Source: Bryobacterales bacterium
Lineage (GTDB): Bacteria; Acidobacteriota; Terriglobia; Bryobacterales; Bryobacteraceae
DNA length: 64,000 nt
NCBI GenBank assembly: GCA_003142185.1
Contig: PLOR01000021.1
Span: 62,001 to 126,000 of the forward strand
Direction: 5' to 3'
Each line of letters starts with the position of its first letter. Within the stretch, counting starts at the first letter, position 1. A program made the position numbers and the translations under genes. Of the stretch, positions 2,243-44,802 are shown piece by piece. A model generated the notes under the pieces. It was not told where the DNA came from, searched no databases, and worked only from the letters and a program-made list of their open reading frames with translations.

Positions 2243-4963
2243 TTATTGCCCACTTACCGTGACGGTGAGACCCGACGGTGTACTTGCGGTACCGATTGTC
2301 AATTGCAGCGGGACGGTTCCGCTCACGCCGGCTGGAATCTGAATGTCGACCTGCAACACGCCGGCCACAAAATCGGGCGCGGCTCCCGCATAAAGAATTT
2401 GCGCAGGCTGCCCGCCCACCATCGCAGTAACCGACAACACTGGCTTGGGATATACGGAGGTGTTCACGCCACCATCCACTCCCGCCGGTATCGTTTGTCC
2501 CTCACCCGTGCCGTACAACACCAGGATTCCGCCCGATGGGGCCGGATTGGACGGCGTGTTCAGTGAATAGTCCAGATTCGTGATGGCAAACGATCCAGGA
2601 GAGGATGCGACGACGGGCAAAGTGACTGTGTTGGTGGGCTTCCCCTGAAAGGTGACTTGCAATTGCGTGGAGGTTTGCCCGGCGACCTCATACGGCACCA
2701 CGGCGTTAATCTGCCCCGCGCTGACATAGGTCAATGGCGCAGGCGTTCCATCGAACGTCACCACGGTGCCGCCTAGCTGGGTTGCGACGCGGCCCGAAGC
2801 ATCCAACTGAAGGCTCAGCGCGGTGGCCGGACCCAGACTGACTCCGGGCCCTGCAAAGATGGTGACAATCTCTCCCGGCGCCACTCCGCCGGCCTGAAAA
2901 GTCGCACCGTTAGCGACGCCCTCCTTCACGATCTGCACTGGTGTGAGTCGGCGGACTCTCAGATTGGTTTCGTCGGCGAAATAGACATTGCCGGAGGCAT
3001 CCAGGGCGATGCTCTGCGGCCCACTCACCTCGGCCAGTGTGGCCAATCCGCCGTCGCCGCTGAAACCGGCGGCTCCGTCTCCCGCGATGGTGGAGATGAT
3101 TCCCGTGACTGCGTCCACCTTGCGAATCCGCGCGTTGCTGGTGATATACAGATTTCCCGTGGCGTCCACGGCTACGCCACACAAGTTGCCGCCAATGGTG
3201 GCGGCCGTGGCGGGGCCTCCATCGCCCAGGGCCCCGTTGCCGCCGCCGGCGACCGTGGTGATGGTGCCTGCGGGGGTGATTTTGCGGACGCGGCTGTTGC
3301 CCCAGTCGGCGATGTAAAGGTCATCGGCGGTGTCGAGCGCCAGTTGAAAGGGCTGAAACAGTTTCGCCAGCACGGCCGGTCCGCCGTCTCCGCTAAAGCC
3401 GGCGACTCCGGCGCCGGCCGTAATAGTGCCGGCGTAGGTAGTGATGATGCCGGCGGGGTCTACGCGCCGGATCAGGCTATTACCCCGATCTGTAATGTAA
3501 ATGTTCCCCGCCGCGTCCCCCACCGCATCGGTCGCCCCGATCATTGCGGCTGAGGTAGCCGGGCCGCCATCGCCGCCATACCCGACCACGCCGTTGCCCG
3601 CTACGGTCGTGACGATCCCGTTCGTCGCAATTCGCCGGATGTCTCCGGTTCCGAAATATAGATTGCCCACCGGATCAAAGCCCAAATCGGTCGGGCCGCC
3701 GATTTCCGCGTTGGCCGCCAGACCGTTGTCGCCGCTAAAGCCGGGCACGCCGTTACCGATGATGGTGGTGATGGTGCCTGAAGGCGAAACCTTGCGGATC
3801 CGGTAGTCCACGTGATCGGCGATGAGAATGTTGTCGCTGCTGTCCACCGCAACACCGAATGGGTCCAGCAGAGCAGTGGATGTGGCCGGGACATTATCGC
3901 CGGCGCCTTGGACCGGCAGCACTCCCGCGATGGTCGTAATGGCCGATTGCGTCACCTTCCGCACCCGGCGATAGTTGATATCCGCCTCCACGAGGTTCCC
4001 GCTATTGTCGAGCGCGATTCCAGCCGGCGAGAGTCCCGCCGAAAGCGGCGGCACGCCGTCCAGCAGCGAAGCGCCCCCGCCCGCGACGCTCGAGATGATG
4101 CCAGTCGCCAGCTTCACCTCCCGGATGAGGCCATTACTGCTGTCGGAAATGTACAAGTTACCCTTGCCGTCCAACGCCACATCCGCCGGGAACGAGAGCG
4201 ACGTCAAGGTGGCCTGCACTCCATCGCCCTCGTAACCGGGTTGCCCGTTACCGGCGACAGTCGAAATAATGCCTTGCACCGTAATCTCGCGAATCCGGAA
4301 GTTCTCCTGATCGGCCACGTAGACGTTGCCCGAGGCATCCACGCGGAGCCCCCGCGGACCAAAGAGCAGGGCGGCGGTGGCTGGCCCTCCGTCGCCGGAA
4401 AAGCCCGCAGTTGTGAGGTTGCCCGCAAAGGGAGTGACGTTACCGGCGGCATCCACTTTGACGATGACGTATCCGCCGGAAACGTACAGATTGCCCGCCG
4501 CATCGACGGCTACGCAAGCCACGCCACTGCCCACGGCCGCAACCGTGGTGATCACGCCGGCCGGCGTCACCTTGCGCACACGGTAGTTGGAGGAATCGGC
4601 GATGTACAGGTTGCCCGCCGCGTCCACGGCGAGACCCTGCGGATCGAAGAGCTGCGCCGAGGTTGCCGGTCCGCCATCGCCGCTGAAGCCCGCTGTGCCG
4701 TTGCCTGCGTACGCGGTAATCATTCCGCCCGGCGAAATCTGAAATACCTGGTGGAAATACGTGTCGCTGACGTAGGTGTTGCCCGCGGAATCCACGGCAA
4801 CGAAACTCGGTACCACCAGTTTGGCACCAACCGCCGGTCCGCCCGCTCCAAATTGGAGCCGGCCATTGCCGGCGATGGTGGTGATGTTGTAGAACTGCGC
4901 CGAAGCAAGCGCCGACCAAAACAGCAGTAAGGGCAGCAGCCTTCGAGTGGACATCCTCTTCAC
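2243..4963 (-). CDS. Secreted NHL-repeat protein with Solibacter-type (TIGR03437) C-terminal domain
   Basis: 906 residues. A signal peptide (cleavage near ASA-QF, residue 22) is followed by about 12 NHL-type blades, seen as recurrent LAVDAAGNLYIADSSNYRVR-like units separated by GDGGPAT-type loops, up to about residue 680. The last about 220 residues (GVANGATFQAGGVAPGEIVT..., VSAGQINAVVPYEV, ILVLYGTGEGQT) match the TIGR03437 domain common in Solibacter relatives. It probably forms one or two extracellular propellers for protein or carbohydrate binding; no catalytic residues are evident. The start shown is GTG at 4963; an in-frame ATG at 4954 is equally possible because neither has a well-spaced ribosome site. 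Confidence 0.9.
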   Translation of the reverse strand: MKRMSTRRLLPLLLFWSALASAQFYNITTIAGNGRLQFGAGGPAVGAKLVVPSFVAVDSAGNTYVSDTYFHQVFQISPGGMITAYAGNGTAGFSGDGGPATSAQLFDPQGLAVDAAGNLYIADSSNYRVRKVTPAGVITTVAAVGSGVACVAVDAAGNLYVSGGYVIVKVDAAGNVTPFAGNLTTAGFSGDGGPATAALLFGPRGLRVDASGNVYVADQENFRIREITVQGIISTVAGNGQPGYEGDGVQATLTSLSFPADVALDGKGNLYISDSSNGLIREVKLATGIISSVAGGGASLLDGVPPLSAGLSPAGIALDNSGNLVEADINYRRVRKVTQSAITTIAGVLPVQGAGDNVPATSTALLDPFGVAVDSSDNILIADHVDYRIRKVSPSGTITTIIGNGVPGFSGDNGLAANAEIGGPTDLGFDPVGNLYFGTGDIRRIATNGIVTTVAGNGVVGYGGDGGPATSAAMIGATDAVGDAAGNIYITDRGNSLIRRVDPAGIITTYAGTITAGAGVAGFSGDGGPAVLAKLFQPFQLALDTADDLYIADWGNSRVRKITPAGTITTVAGGGNGALGDGGPATAATIGGNLCGVAVDATGNLYITSNARIRKVDAVTGIISTIAGDGAAGFSGDGGLATLAEVSGPQSIALDASGNVYFADETNLRVRRLTPVQIVKEGVANGATFQAGGVAPGEIVTIFAGPGVSLGPATALSLQLDASGRVATQLGGTVVTFDGTPAPLTYVSAGQINAVVPYEVAGQTSTQLQVTFQGKPTNTVTLPVVASSPGSFAITNLDYSLNTPSNPAPSGGILVLYGTGEGQTIPAGVDGGVNTSVYPKPVLSVTAMVGGQPAQILYAGAAPDFVAGVLQVDIQIPAGVSGTVPLQLTIGTASTPSGLTVTVSGQ

Positions 4964-10811: not shown

Positions 10812-11400
10812 CCTGCTCCGCGACCGCCTGCGCGGAATCGCGGAGCTGACAGACGAGCAGGCCGCGGCGCTGGAATCCCATTACAACCTGCTGGTTCTCT
10901 GGAACCGCACGCTTAATCTCACCACCATCCGAGACCTGCCTGAGGTCATCGAACGTCACTATGGCGAGTCACTCTTCCTGGCGGCGCGCCTGCCCGCCGG
11001 TCCGCTACGAATCGTCGATGTGGGCTCGGGCGCGGGGTTTCCAGGTTTGCCGGTCGCGGTCTATCGACCGGATTGCGCAGTCACGCTGATTGAATCGCAC
11101 CAACGCAAGGCAGTGTTCTTGAAGGAAGCAGCGCGCGATCTCACGAACATGCGCGTGCTGGCGCGGCGTGCCGAGCAGGTGGCCGGGCAGGTAAATGAAA
11201 AGAATGACGAGTTCGATCTGGCCGTCTCACGCGCCGTAAGCTATAGCGATCTCTCGCCCAGCCTGAAGGCGCTGGCGCCTGCGGCCTATCTCTTGGGTGG
11301 AGCGGAGAGCGCACCCGATGATATGGGCTTCGTGTGGGAATCGCCCGTCCCATTGCCTTGGGGAAAGCAGCGATTTCTGCGAATGGGACGCCGGAGTTAA
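10801..11400 (+). CDS. rsmG: 16S rRNA (guanine-N7) methyltransferase RsmG
   Basis: 199 residues. Methylates N7 of G527 (E. coli numbering) in 16S rRNA with SAM. The N-terminal helices ([18 protein letters not shown]) and SAM motif ([17 protein letters not shown]) are typical, followed by [15 protein letters not shown] and the SRAV motif ([14 protein letters not shown]). The start is taken as GTG 10801 ([20 protein letters not shown]), overlapping the mnmG stop by 11 bp. The frame stays open upstream inside mnmG, but that part is not RsmG-like. The tail after [11 protein letters not shown] is short and divergent. Confidence 0.93.
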
Positions 11401-11404
11401 GGTC

Positions 11405-11455
11405 GTGGCGCAGACTGTCGAGTCTGCAGAGCCGAGAGTCGTCTCGGCTTTTCTT
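11405..11455 (+). repeat. Twin-hairpin dispersed repeat, copy 1 (after rsmG)
   Basis: Two adjacent perfect stems share the loop GTCG: GCAGACT/AGTCTGC (11410-11427) and GCCGAGA/TCTCGGC (11431-11448), the second followed by TTTTCTT. The same unit recurs three times at 41995-42441. It starts 4 bp after the rsmG stop, so the second stem may also serve as an intrinsic terminator. Confidence 0.75.
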
Positions 11456-11509
11456 GGCGCGCATGAAGTGAATAGTGCCGCCCTCTCGTGAAACCGGATA
11501 GACTGGGCG

Positions 11510-41563: not shown

Positions 41564-41887
41564 GGCCCCACCCCCGAGCGCGCATCCGAGCCGCGGCCAG
41601 AGGAAGCGGTTGGCCCAGTCGTTTCAGACCCCTACTACCCCAAGGGGCACGCGCGGGGCCAGTTCCCCGCCTGCGTTCACCAATCCCGCAAATTTCCCCA
41701 AGCCACTGTCCCCACAGGCGTTACGCCCTCTTCCACGCGCTCCGGACGCCGTGCCCCGCCACCCTCTTGTGCCAAAGTGAGATTAGGTAGGGCCGGGCAT
41801 GCCCGGCCCGGCTTCCCGCGAGGCGCCCTGCCGCCCAGGGAGCCGCCACGGGTAAGGAGACCGCATTCATGAATTCAACCGCTGAGC
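41564..41887. other. Intergenic stretch with a GC-rich palindrome
   Basis: Between the restriction-modification stop and the tandem array. The only notable element is a perfect 16-bp palindrome, GCCGGGCATGCCCGGC, at 41792-41807. No credible reading frame or RNA gene is seen. Confidence 0.5.
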
Positions 41888-42470
41888 CAACCGCCCCCGT
41901 GGGCACGATTGGCCCACTTTTTCGGTACTGTTTTTATTGTTTTCAATAACTTAACCATCCGCTCGTGGGACCGATCTGTCCCACGCGCAGACCCGTGGCG
42001 CAGATTGTCAAACCTGCTGAGCCGAGAGTCGTCTCGGCTTCTCTTCCTGGAAGGCCATTCCCTCGATCATGCTCTTAATTAACCGCCCCGTGGGAATGAT
42101 CGGGCCCACTTTTTAGGTACTGTTTTTATTGTTCTCAATAACTTAACCCTCCGCGCGTGGGACCGATCAGTCCCACGCGCAGACCCGTGGCGCAGGTTGT
42201 CAAACCTGCTGAGCCGAGAGTCGTCTCGGCTTTTCTTCCTGGAAGGCCATTCCCTCGATCATGCTCTTAATTAACCGCCCCGCGTGGGAATGATCGGGTC
42301 CACTTTTTAGGTACTGTTTTTACTGTTTTCAACAACTTAACCATTCGCGCGTGGGACCGCTCGTTCCCACGCGCAGCCCCGTGGCGCAGGTTGTCAAACC
42401 TGCTGAGCCGAGAGTAGAGTAGAGCCGTCTCGGCTTTTCTTCCTGGAAGGCCATTCGCTCGATCGAGCTC
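41888..42470. repeat. Tandem array of three hairpin-rich units of about 192 bp
   Basis: Three head-to-tail copies with a period of 191-194 bp (GTGGG landmarks at 41899, 42090, 42284; GTGGCGCAG landmarks at 41995, 42187, 42381). Each unit holds, in order: a GTGGGC/GCCCAC stem followed by TTTTT; a TTATTG/CAATAA stem (lost in copy 3); a long GCGCGTGGGAC/GTCCCACGCGC stem; and the twin hairpins GCAGGTT-GTCA-AACCTGC and GCCGAGA-GTCG-TCTCGGC followed by a T-rich tail. Copy 3 has about ten extra bases (TAGAGTAGAG) in the last loop. There are no spacers between units, so it is not a CRISPR array. Confidence 0.85.
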
Positions 42471-42490
42471 TTAACTTCTAGCGCACTCGC

Positions 42491-43556
42491 CTACAACGGC
42501 ACGTGCAGGGTTCCCACCATCCCGGAACCAACGTCCCGGAAACCCAGGCTGAACCCGGTTGGCCCCGGCGGCGTCTTCACTCGCGCACCCAGGACGAGAC
42601 CCTGGTCCTGAATCTGGCGAAGCGCACCTTCGGTGAAACTCAACGGAATCGTCGTAAGCTGCTCGACCTTCCCCACCGGAAGGACGCGCGTTGGGGTTGC
42701 TTTGCGGCATGCTGTCCGTGCCGTTGCGCAAGCCCAGTTGAATCGGGAATCCGCCCGAAATCCAAACCAGCGTCTTCCGGCCGGGAATGCCCTGCAAATG
42801 TCCGGCGATGGTTTCGAGAGCCGCCGCCGTGCGAGTCGCGCGCACCGTCTCGGCATAATCGACATAGGGCTGGTTGGAAGCCTTCATGAAGCTATCCCAC
42901 TGTGCGGTGGTCGCCTGATCGCCCGTAAGCGAATGGGCCGAGGCAGGCGGCGCCGTGGAAGCATCCACTTCCGGATTCACGCGATTCGAGTGCTTCGCGA
43001 CAGCCTCCAGCAGCGAAGCCATATCCTGCGAAAAATCGTGCAGCAGCGAGAGCGAGTCGCCCAGCACGAAAACGGCGACCCGGCTGGCCGCCGGCACCCC
43101 CCGTAAGTATCGGAGAAAGTCTTTCTTGGCCAGCTCCTGATCGGAGAGTTGTGTATTCAGTTCATCGAACAGGAACACGGTCACGGCCGCGATATTCGCT
43201 CCCGGCCTGTTGGTGAACGTCGACGCAGCCGGCGAACTCGAAACCGCCGTTGCCGCCCTGCTGGCTTCTTCCAACGCAAACAGCCCGATCTTTTGCTCCT
43301 GGCCGTTGTCGCGCAGCTCGAAATCGGCGCGCCTCAGGTCGTCGACCGGCTTTCCGCTCTTGTCCTTCACCACCACGTTCACCAGGACGACGTGCGTCCC
43401 CGCGTGAATCACGACCTGATCCGGCGTGGCTTGTGGGACCGCCGGAGACGGCAGCCCCAGCAGCAGCGTCATCAGCAAACCATAAGGCCAGACCGCAAGC
43501 GGGCGGTTGGCGGGGAACGCCTTCGAAACGGATCGGCGGAAGCGGCGAATCTGCAT
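42491..43556 (-). pseudogene. Broken VWFA-related protein gene (TIGR03436 type)
   Basis: From an ATG at 43556 with GGAGG five bases upstream, the frame encodes a signal/anchor and a VWFA-related domain: VVLVNVVVKDKSGKPVDDL, FELRDNGQEQKIGLFAL, TVFLFDELNTQLSDQELA, VFVLGDSLSLLHDFSQ and RKTLVWISGGFPIQLG. Near 42690 the sense passes to another frame, which encodes VLPVGKVEQLTTIPLSF and the family-like C-terminus DVGSGMVGTLHVPL, ending at 42491. The part normally between these is missing, so an internal deletion with frameshift is likely. In the original frame translation runs on to 42471 as nonsense. Confidence 0.78.
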
Positions 43557-43668
43557 ACGGGCCTCCGGAACAGAGCTCATTTCGAAGTCTATATCATTCC
43601 CGCCGGAACCGAGCCGCGACCACAGGGAGCGGTCGTTTCGACTAGCACCGAATCTGCCCATCGAAGAC

Positions 43669-44802
43669 CTAGCCGCCGGAAGGTGGCAATCGCAGCGCCG
43701 TCGCCAGCACCTGGGCGATCCGCTCGCACGCGCGCCCGTCGCCGTAGGGGTTGTGGACACGGGTCATGCGGGTGTATTCTCGTTCGTCGTCCAGCAATCG
43801 CGCTGCCTCGGCGACGATCTGCCGCTCGTCGGTTCCCACCAGCTTCACCGTTCCGGCTTCCACCGCTTCCGGCCGCTCGGTTTTCTCGCGCAGCACCAGC
43901 ACCGGCTTGCCGAGCGACGGTGCTTCCTCCTGAATGCCGCCCGAATCCGTAATGATCATCCAGCACCGGCGCATGAGGTCCACAAAAGCCACGTAAGGCA
44001 ACGGATCGAGCAGGACGATATTGGCGTGTCCGGAGAGCTGGCTGTAGGCGGGGCCCAGCACGTTGGGATTGCGGTGCACCGGGTAAACCACCTGAACGTC
44101 GGGCCGCTCCGCCACCAGCGCGAGCGCCCGCATGGCGCGGTCGAAGCCGGGCCCGAAGTTTTCGCGGCGGTGGCAGGTAACCAGCACCAGCCGCCTGGCC
44201 GGATCGAGCCAGGGCCAGACCGGCGCATGGAGTTCGCCCTGTTCCAGCGCATGGCGCACCCAAAGCACCGCATCGATGCCGGTATTGCCCGTGACGAAGA
44301 TCCTTTCGGGCGCCACGCCCTCCTGCAAAAGGGCGGCTTCGGCGCCGCGCGTGGGGGCGAAATGATATTCCGCGATGCGCGACGTGAGTACGCGGTTCAT
44401 TTCCTCCGGGAACGGCTGCCGCAGGTCGCCCGTGCGCAGCCCAGCTTCAACGTGCGCGACCGGCACGCCGCGATAAAACGCGCCCAGCGCCGCGGCGAAG
44501 GTGGTGTTCGTGTCGCCCTGCACCACAACCAGGTGCGGCCGCTCGGAGTTCAAAACCGTTTCGATGCCGCCCAGAATCCGCGCCGTGATGCCGCACAGCG
44601 TCTGGCCCGGCTGCATCAGGTCGAGATCGAAATCCGGACGGACTCCGAAGGCTTCCAGCACCGGGTCCAACATGTCGCGGTGCTGGGCCGTGACACAGAC
44701 TCTCACCTCGAAGTCGTCCGGCTGCGAGCCCAGCCGTTTGATCAGCGGGCAGAGCTTGATGGCCTCCGGCCGCGTCCCGAGAACAAAAAGAATCCGGCTC
44801 AA
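43669..44802 (-). CDS. wecB: UDP-N-acetylglucosamine 2-epimerase
   Basis: 377 residues, typical length. Non-hydrolysing epimerase making UDP-ManNAc for surface polysaccharides. Motifs: ILFVLGTRPEAIKLCPLIKR, HLVVVQGDTNTTFAAALGAF, VAHVEAGLRTGDLRQPFPEE, MNRVLTSRIAEYHFAPT, VTGNTGIDAVL and ITDSGGIQEEAPSLGKPVLV. The start is TTG at 44802, 19 bp after the GT2 stop. It is the last intact gene of the minus-strand operon that begins near 49230. Confidence 0.95.
   Translation of the reverse strand: MSRILFVLGTRPEAIKLCPLIKRLGSQPDDFEVRVCVTAQHRDMLDPVLEAFGVRPDFDLDLMQPGQTLCGITARILGGIETVLNSERPHLVVVQGDTNTTFAAALGAFYRGVPVAHVEAGLRTGDLRQPFPEEMNRVLTSRIAEYHFAPTRGAEAALLQEGVAPERIFVTGNTGIDAVLWVRHALEQGELHAPVWPWLDPARRLVLVTCHRRENFGPGFDRAMRALALVAERPDVQVVYPVHRNPNVLGPAYSQLSGHANIVLLDPLPYVAFVDLMRRCWMIITDSGGIQEEAPSLGKPVLVLREKTERPEAVEAGTVKLVGTDERQIVAEAARLLDDEREYTRMTRVHNPYGDGRACERIAQVLATALRLPPSGG

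Follow-up and report, generated by a model that had tools for sequence, protein, structure and literature searches.

A three-unit hairpin array in a Bryobacterales genome read as a tandem composite of two dispersed repeat families

Organisation of the array

Does a dense cluster of hairpins, repeated three times beside a restriction-modification gene, represent a structured RNA, a functional DNA site or a composite of repeats? The cluster lies in a 64-kb window (the whole stretch of DNA analysed here; G000:C109:62001-126000) from a Bryobacterales genome, G000, which comprises 5.8 Mb in 119 contigs. An earlier note, made from the sequence alone, had described three units of about 192 bp and had proposed a structured non-coding RNA, a phage-defence decoy, a replication or partition site or a composite of repeat elements. 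Tandem Repeats Finder confirmed a head-to-tail array of three such units at 41889-42474 (period 192, 3.0 copies, 90% matches, score 912). Its neighbours are those given in the note, with the restriction-modification gene on one side and an interrupted gene on the other.

The stems listed in the note are present in the sequence, and the twin hairpins and the 11-bp GC stem are strong in unit 2. Folded as RNA, unit 2 showed z = -5.6, and none of 200 shuffles was equally stable; folded as DNA, its twin hairpins reached z = -5.0 and its 11-bp GC stem (42153-42180) z = -5.8. The stem preceding TTTTT, which the note had called terminator-like (GTGGG/CCCAC in unit 2), was found as well, but its strength is not above that of shuffles (-3.5 kcal/mol as DNA, z = -0.5, 55/200 shuffles as good). 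The single mismatch noted in the long stem of copy 1 was recovered, together with a further mismatch, missed by the note, in the first twin hairpin (twin hairpins of this copy, z = -2.7). In copy 3 the long stem is indeed shorter, by one pair on inspection, and the second twin hairpin carries an insertion of 10 nt in its loop, with the stem unbroken. The frame of the note proved too narrow: unit 1 is part of an element that starts at about 41676, and each unit consists of two unrelated dispersed repeats, here called A and B, and a 40-bp linker. The parts of the array and its neighbours are:

41676-41790, + strand: U, the 5' half of the dispersed element UA, leading into unit 1; aligns with 11 other copies, model match 94.2 bits
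41787-41808, + strand: element C, a short GC-rich REP-like hairpin with a GTAG foot and an 8-bp stem, at the end of U
41894-41987, + strand: A copy 1, with palindrome P1, A/T-rich core and palindrome P2; model R2, 102.6 bits
41994-42045, + strand: B copy 1, a GTGG-footed bipartite REP with one mismatch in hairpin 1; model R1, 74 bits
42046-42084, + strand: linker 1
42085-42179, + strand: A copy 2, with the 11-bp GC stem at 42153-42180; model R2, 100.4 bits
42186-42237, + strand: B copy 2; model R1, 82.9 bits
42238-42278, + strand: linker 2
42279-42373, + strand: A copy 3; model R2, 91.1 bits
42380-42441, + strand: B copy 3, hairpin 2 with a 10-nt loop insertion; model R1, 69.5 bits
42442-42474, + strand: linker 3, its end partly diverged
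11398-11463, + strand: lone B copy elsewhere in the window; model R1, 82.9 bits
38675-41563, + strand: ORF, type ISP restriction-modification enzyme gene; Pfam Type_ISP_C, ISP_coupler, N6_Mtase and Eco57I
42471-43760, - strand: interrupted ORF with an acidobacterial VWFA domain; NCBIfam TIGR03436

The VWFA-family ORF is interrupted in its 3' part, the TIGR03436 match covering positions 2-191 of the 324 of the profile. In G001, the one other genome of this genus among the relatives searched (the sister genome), the DNA match beside an epimerase (wecB-like) gene stops at window position 43703, and at that place neither the array nor the VWFA ORF nor the type ISP gene has a match.

Comparison of the units with each other showed unequal conservation of their parts. 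Between copies 1 and 2, B with the junction and the linker differs at 2/97 positions and A at 9/94 plus one indel; between copies 2 and 3, the only change in B is the 10-nt insertion, and A differs at 11/95 positions. Such unequal change may reflect selection or conversion more than simple decay.

Each unit joins two dispersed repeats

A search of G000 with one unit revealed at least 47 matches (best 40 of 143 candidates), of which the full-length ones lie at the array only. The remaining matches cover mostly either positions ~5-105 of the unit, corresponding to A, or positions ~105-160, corresponding to B. Both parts occur many times elsewhere without the other, which bears out the composite among the readings proposed before; the check suggested with it, a search for the GCGTGGGAC stem without the twin hairpins, found this stem elsewhere in just that state. 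A model search detected no B within 600 bp of A at the 16 other A-bearing loci of G000. Since B stands beside A only at the array among the 17 A sites of this genome, we read the array as a local tandem duplication of the junction.

B is a two-hairpin REP family

B, the twin hairpins of the note, is 52 nt long and consists of a GTGG-footed REP and a second, terminator-like hairpin. Its layout is GTGG, C, hairpin 1 (7 bp, 4-nt loop), a short spacer, hairpin 2 (9 bp with G-T) and TTCTT; the stretch after hairpin 2 reads TTTTCTT. Searches with a model of 66 columns (R1) revealed at least 150 matches in G000 (150/150 scored candidates, from a first look that listed 4818), the weakest few of which may belong to a sister family, and at least 110 in G001 (110 of 127 candidates scored). 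Across 41 genomes, nine besides G000 and G001 contained 1 to 35 matches and 30 contained none; these searches of relatives used stricter filters and scored a limited number of best-ranked candidates, and may miss weak or far-diverged copies. An exact-pattern scan of genomes for B gave 14 stretches, all in three Bryobacterales MAGs.

Alignments of B showed that its hairpins covary. Within the genus (alignment A2, which took in 32/37 B copies) 98.4% of cells are paired and 5/16 pairs have changed on both sides, which none of 500 shuffles reproduced. Across genera, and including the sister families of G000, 98.8% of cells are paired and 12/16 pairs are double-changed, a number reached by 1/500 shuffles; this alignment was fitted to the model and leans towards it. 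The tetranucleotide GTAG or GTGG precedes the hairpin by 0-2 nt in 37/37 copies, a count that is partly built in because the selection of copies allowed no more than one mismatch in CGTGGCGC. At least seven basal pairs and a loop of 2-5, the stem rule for REPs, were found in only 19/37 copies with Watson-Crick pairs and in 31/37 allowing G-T.

B copies are intergenic in 16/25 cases, compared with 135/1000 random positions at the same loci (own ORF heuristic). Among the at least 150 matches in G000, neighbouring pairs within 320 bp are inverted in 13 cases and direct in three, two of the direct pairs being those of the window array. All but one of the 13 inverted pairs show + then - order with their feet outward, as in REPINs. 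A terminator-like site was called on B of unit 2; in that kilobase there are 2 such sites versus 1.3 expected by chance, so we can only infer termination at B. Where B lies at the end of a gene, its role probably does not go beyond that of a transcription terminator or a stabiliser of the mRNA 3' end.

A RAYT gene is bracketed by B copies

Two inverted B copies bracket a 207-aa ORF at positions 2839-3462 of locus L090 (G000:C51), one lying upstream at 2733 (+) and the other at 3375 (-) over the RAYT 3' end; a third copy follows 700 bp further on. The encoded protein has a Y1_Tnp domain (PF01797) with HUH, a WQ..(E/D)H..R block and Y..NP, and its score is barely above that required by the NCBIfam RAYT (REP-associated tyrosine transposase) model NF047646 (80.2 bits, cut-off 80). 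A match to E. coli TnpAREP (4er8, E 1.1e-4) aligns the WQ...(E/D)H..R and Y..NP blocks of the two proteins; PMC6006769 describes what W94, Q95 and R104 do in TnpAREP. By this bracketing, read from the sequence, B is a RAYT-linked REP, and we infer its mobilisation by the C51 RAYT.

Among the seven Y1_Tnp genes of G000, those on C51 and C97 are the only ones bracketed by two-hairpin REPs, model hits showing no bracketing of the remaining five. The gene on C97 (L093:2635-3323) is a second RAYT of this genome and is bracketed inversely by a sister two-hairpin REP family (GTGGCGCACGCACTCATGCGTGC...). At L090:4171-4290 a solo B is followed by ~55 bp that on inspection are nearly identical to the upstream flank of the RAYT, which looks like a copied piece of the RAYT cassette.

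Matches to the C51 RAYT were detected in 34/61 genomes, G000 included. G001, whose assembly is 91% complete, has none despite its more than 100 B matches; its RAYT may have been lost, may be missing from the assembly or may have been replaced by one of the two other Y1_Tnp matches that G001 carries. In other genera, all 18 B-model hits (E up to 0.01) around RAYT homologues lie within 400 bp of the gene, a zone that makes up 16.8 of the 53.4 kb examined around 13 homologues. B-like hits accompany the gene at 8/13 of these loci, on both sides in four, and 5/13 have no such hit even at E up to 1. No cognate RAYT was identified for element C, the hairpin at 41787-41808, which corresponds to at least 15 matches in G000 starting at query positions 224-228 (best 40 of 123 candidates).

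RAYT-linked GTAG/GTGG repeats are well described (PMC2817692, PMC3733652, PMC6006769). B resembles the REP/RAYT REPtrons presented there (Nunvar 2010, PMC2817692; Quentin 2018, PMC6006769) in its GTGG foot one base from the hairpin, its 7-bp hairpin with a 4-base loop, its more than 100 mostly intergenic copies, the inverted copies around a RAYT gene and the close inverted pairs. Unlike the REPtrons as these sources describe them, B includes a second constant hairpin with a T-rich tail, and both of its stems change between genera while the layout is kept. Acidobacteria contain TIR-flanked Y1 transposases (Di Nocera 2013, PMC3733652), Solibacter usitatus contains about 600 copies of class 3 elements (PMC6006769), and REPs joined to a second stem-loop occur in P. 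putida and P. fluorescens (PMC3733652). Since RAYT-linked, TIR-flanked, class 3 and stem-loop-joined REPs are already in print, B is a new family but a variant within the known RAYT-linked REP type. The literature searched gave no description of the B family or of UA, which does not prove that none exists. A RAYT/REP family whose repeat has two hairpins is now documented in Bryobacterales; from genus to genus both stems change and the layout stays.

A is the 3' half of a second dispersed element

The second component of the unit, A, has two palindromes (P1 and P2) around an A/T-rich core and forms the 3' half of UA, a dispersed element of 250-310 nt with 15 copies in G000. Window positions 41564-41990 match further sites of the genome, and an alignment of 12 copies revealed a single element that extends from TTCACC (window 41676) up to P2 (41984). 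G000 has 15 U copies, all with an A 41-104 nt further on; G001 has five weak matches, and 59 other genomes have none under strict filters and among the limited number of candidates scored per genome. Two further A sites in G000 lack a U match. The ORFs around the copies are mostly unrelated, an all-against-all comparison having given, outside the element itself, two weak pairs (36% and 43%). Terminal inverted repeats as in a MITE were on inspection not seen at the ends of the alignment (TTCACC... and ...CCCACGG). An empty site was sought in G001, where one locus was unmatched and hence uninformative and another had its flanks on two contigs, so that no target duplication can be read. The copies at L079 and L084 have in common an insert of ~50-60 nt between U and A with a hairpin of its own (GGCACGAA...TTCGTGCC).

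UA fits none of the families tested. A link to RAYTs was rejected, as the A model gave no hit around the seven Y1_Tnp genes of G000 (4.7-6.3-kb stretches) or the two of G001; the UA copy nearest to such a gene, on C88, is ~3.5 kb away. On inspection P1 and P2 have no GTRG foot in G001, and in G000 GTGG occurs only inside the stem. As a coding remnant UA was discarded as well: its copies match in several frames and carry single-base indels, so that no frame is favoured. The gap of 41-104 nt between U and A in all 15 copies is too close for a transposase gene in between, which removes the ends of an insertion sequence from consideration. Orthologous, vertically kept sites were rejected since the ORFs flanking the five G001 U loci showed no convincing agreement with G000 (one 38% hit). 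Two stretches with the exact core string in viral contigs lack adjacent palindromes and were taken as chance. Consensus folds of the whole element on both strands showed little covariation, with 2/19 and 3/23 pairs changed on both sides.

A palindrome, an IHF site and a second palindrome are the layout of the E. coli RIB/RIP elements. Like these and the 155-bp Correia/NEMIS element of Neisseria, whose IHF site is reported to bind in vitro (PMC2229807), A is dispersed and carries two palindromes around an A/T-rich, IHF-like core. In contrast to these elements as commonly described, the A core agrees with the IHF consensus in part only, UA has the conserved 115-nt half U and no terminal inverted repeats were seen, and the palindromes differ between two genomes of one genus. 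The TIRYT/TIR repeats of Acidobacteria (PMC3733652) are, like UA, moderately abundant palindromic families, in the same phylum; they are tied to Y1 transposases there, in contrast to A with its lack of matches around the seven Y1_Tnp genes of G000.

The UA palindromes differ between two genomes of one genus

Searches with R2, likewise with stricter filters and a limited number of candidates scored, gave at least 14 rows in G001. Two of these did not enter the palindrome statistics, L125 because it has no palindromes and L133 because a contig end truncates it. The 12 usable A copies are L115, L117, L119, L121, L123, L127, L129, L131, L134, L135, L210 and L211, and 11 of them have a recognisable U motif upstream on inspection. 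Both palindromes are GTGGGaaCGATCGttCCCAC-like in G000 and AAACGGGGcGAATTCgCCCCGTTT-like in G001, whereas core and layout are alike. Over 18 G000 rows (without L140, which has a longer spacer) and the 12 G001 rows, P1 and P2 have a mean identity of 0.82-0.85 among copies of one genome, against 0.48-0.49 when the two genomes are compared. For the core the corresponding values are 0.76-0.79 and 0.74, for U they are 0.62 and 0.54 within the genomes against 0.47 between them, and for the spacers 0.39-0.43 and 0.33-0.34. Inside one element P1 and P2 have an identity of 0.80 and 0.82. Of the palindrome cells, 86.1% keep their pairing and 72 are double-changed (0/500 shuffles), while the numbers of double-changed pairs and of pair types are not beyond shuffles (98 and 301 of 500).

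In a tree calculated without the palindrome columns (L210, whose U was not recognised, left out), the G001 copy L134 grouped with 11 G000 copies (support 97/96), and the remaining 10 G001 rows came together on one side with weak support (79/74). G001 appeared as one clade in 0/200 bootstrap trees, and the AU test did not reject such a clade (p = 0.0725). The palindromes of L134 are of the G001 type. As its body is G000-like, this one copy suggests, without proving it, a genome-wide palindrome change across older UA subfamilies. The sequences suggest that the palindromes co-change with a putative partner.

We tentatively consider, without thinking it probable, that UA is an undescribed dispersed non-coding class whose palindromes are rewritten jointly per genome around an unchanged core, with a putative fast-evolving partner separate from the RAYT/REP system. 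Such a partner would be a sequence-specific nuclease, a transposase or a regulator that keeps the palindromes of a genome in step. The plain alternative is master-copy expansion of UA in each lineage. If recent, this expansion sits badly with a core divergence that is near-equal within and between the genomes; the core may, in favour of expansion, simply be constrained. Either way UA offers a natural comparison, with two genomes of one genus that have a common core and different paired palindromes. This comparison could reveal a palindrome-reading protein and why dispersed bacterial repeats stay uniform per genome, and a concerted palindrome change, if confirmed, would surprise specialists. 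The right arm of the second palindrome of L131 resembles the G000 type, and this copy is possibly a hybrid.

Origin of the array

Very probably, a junction formed by chance between two dispersed, mostly intergenic repeat families was triplicated locally, in tandem, to give the array. The C51 RAYT, an HUH protein, would recognise the GTGG foot and the first hairpin of B as single-stranded DNA and would have spread B to about 150 sites, one of them 6 nt after the A of one UA copy. A and B with ~40 bp of flank would then have been duplicated in tandem, perhaps by slippage, by unequal recombination or by RAYT action on direct repeats. Unit 1 runs upstream into a complete UA, whereas units 2 and 3 contain nothing but A, B and linker, which makes it likely that UA came first, B second and the duplication of A and B last. 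The array is thus ordinary in kind, a composite of mobile repeats amplified in tandem, and the striking hairpin cluster is explained without a new RNA or defence system.

A reading that we regard as unlikely takes the array for a functional multi-site locus, in which P1-core-P2 modules would be bound by a nucleoid or regulatory protein at an IHF-like core and their amplification would have been selected. The P1-core-P2 layout is present in 30 aligned A copies, 23 of which contain [AT][AT]TCAANNNNTT[AG], a relaxed IHF consensus; on both strands of the window this pattern has two hits, which are array copies 1 and 3. The paired state of the palindromes, unmatched by any shuffle, agrees with such a locus, but two of the five palindrome measures were matched by shuffles. 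The core resembles the IHF consensus, being one base short in all but one matching copy; the full consensus occurs in only 1/30 A copies. A copies elsewhere are single, and the equivalent place in G001 gave no DNA match. The A core as a putative IHF-like binding site is a lead only.

Three readings of the earlier note found no support: the parts are dispersed separately over many contigs, and where G001 should carry the array locus it has no DNA match to it. A structured non-coding RNA transcribed across the three units is improbable. The strong fold of the unit and the paired substitutions in B and in the palindromes would suit an RNA, but both palindromes are equally palindromic as DNA. Rfam at gathering threshold gave two tRNAs only in the window and no match at the array; a permissive search (E up to 5) of eight UA loci (L077-L084) gave three weak matches, scoring far below their gathering scores and none of them at UA. 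Against an RNA, too, a single promoter-like site was seen (9/12 matches, 0.2 expected). The remaining two readings are highly improbable: a defence-related decoy or part of a restriction-modification island would fit the adjoining type ISP gene in a stretch without a DNA match in G001, but B and UA copies lie on many contigs and plasmid and phage records (two collections) gave no match to 41676-42474; an iteron-like replication or partition site would fit direct repeats with A/T-rich segments, but there are three units only, the scanned neighbours are the type ISP gene, the VWFA-family ORF and the epimerase gene, and the plasmid records are likewise unmatched.

Tandem amplification of REPs has precedents. 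Tandem arrays in which REPs of two groups stand 112 and 72 bp apart give a 184-bp peak in P. fluorescens SBW25 (PMC3116915), and tandem REPINs including their flanks are described (Bertels and Rainey 2011, PMC3116915). Our array resembles these in its ordered two-group tandem repeats with a spacing of 192 bp compared with 184 bp; it differs from the arrays reported there in its partner A, which has no GTRG foot outside the stem and no known transposase. Another genome (L197:1416-1814, G009) has four direct B-like two-hairpin copies in a row, repeated every 112-113 bp and situated at the 3' end of its RAYT gene, which make up an independent tandem array of the same kind as that in the window.
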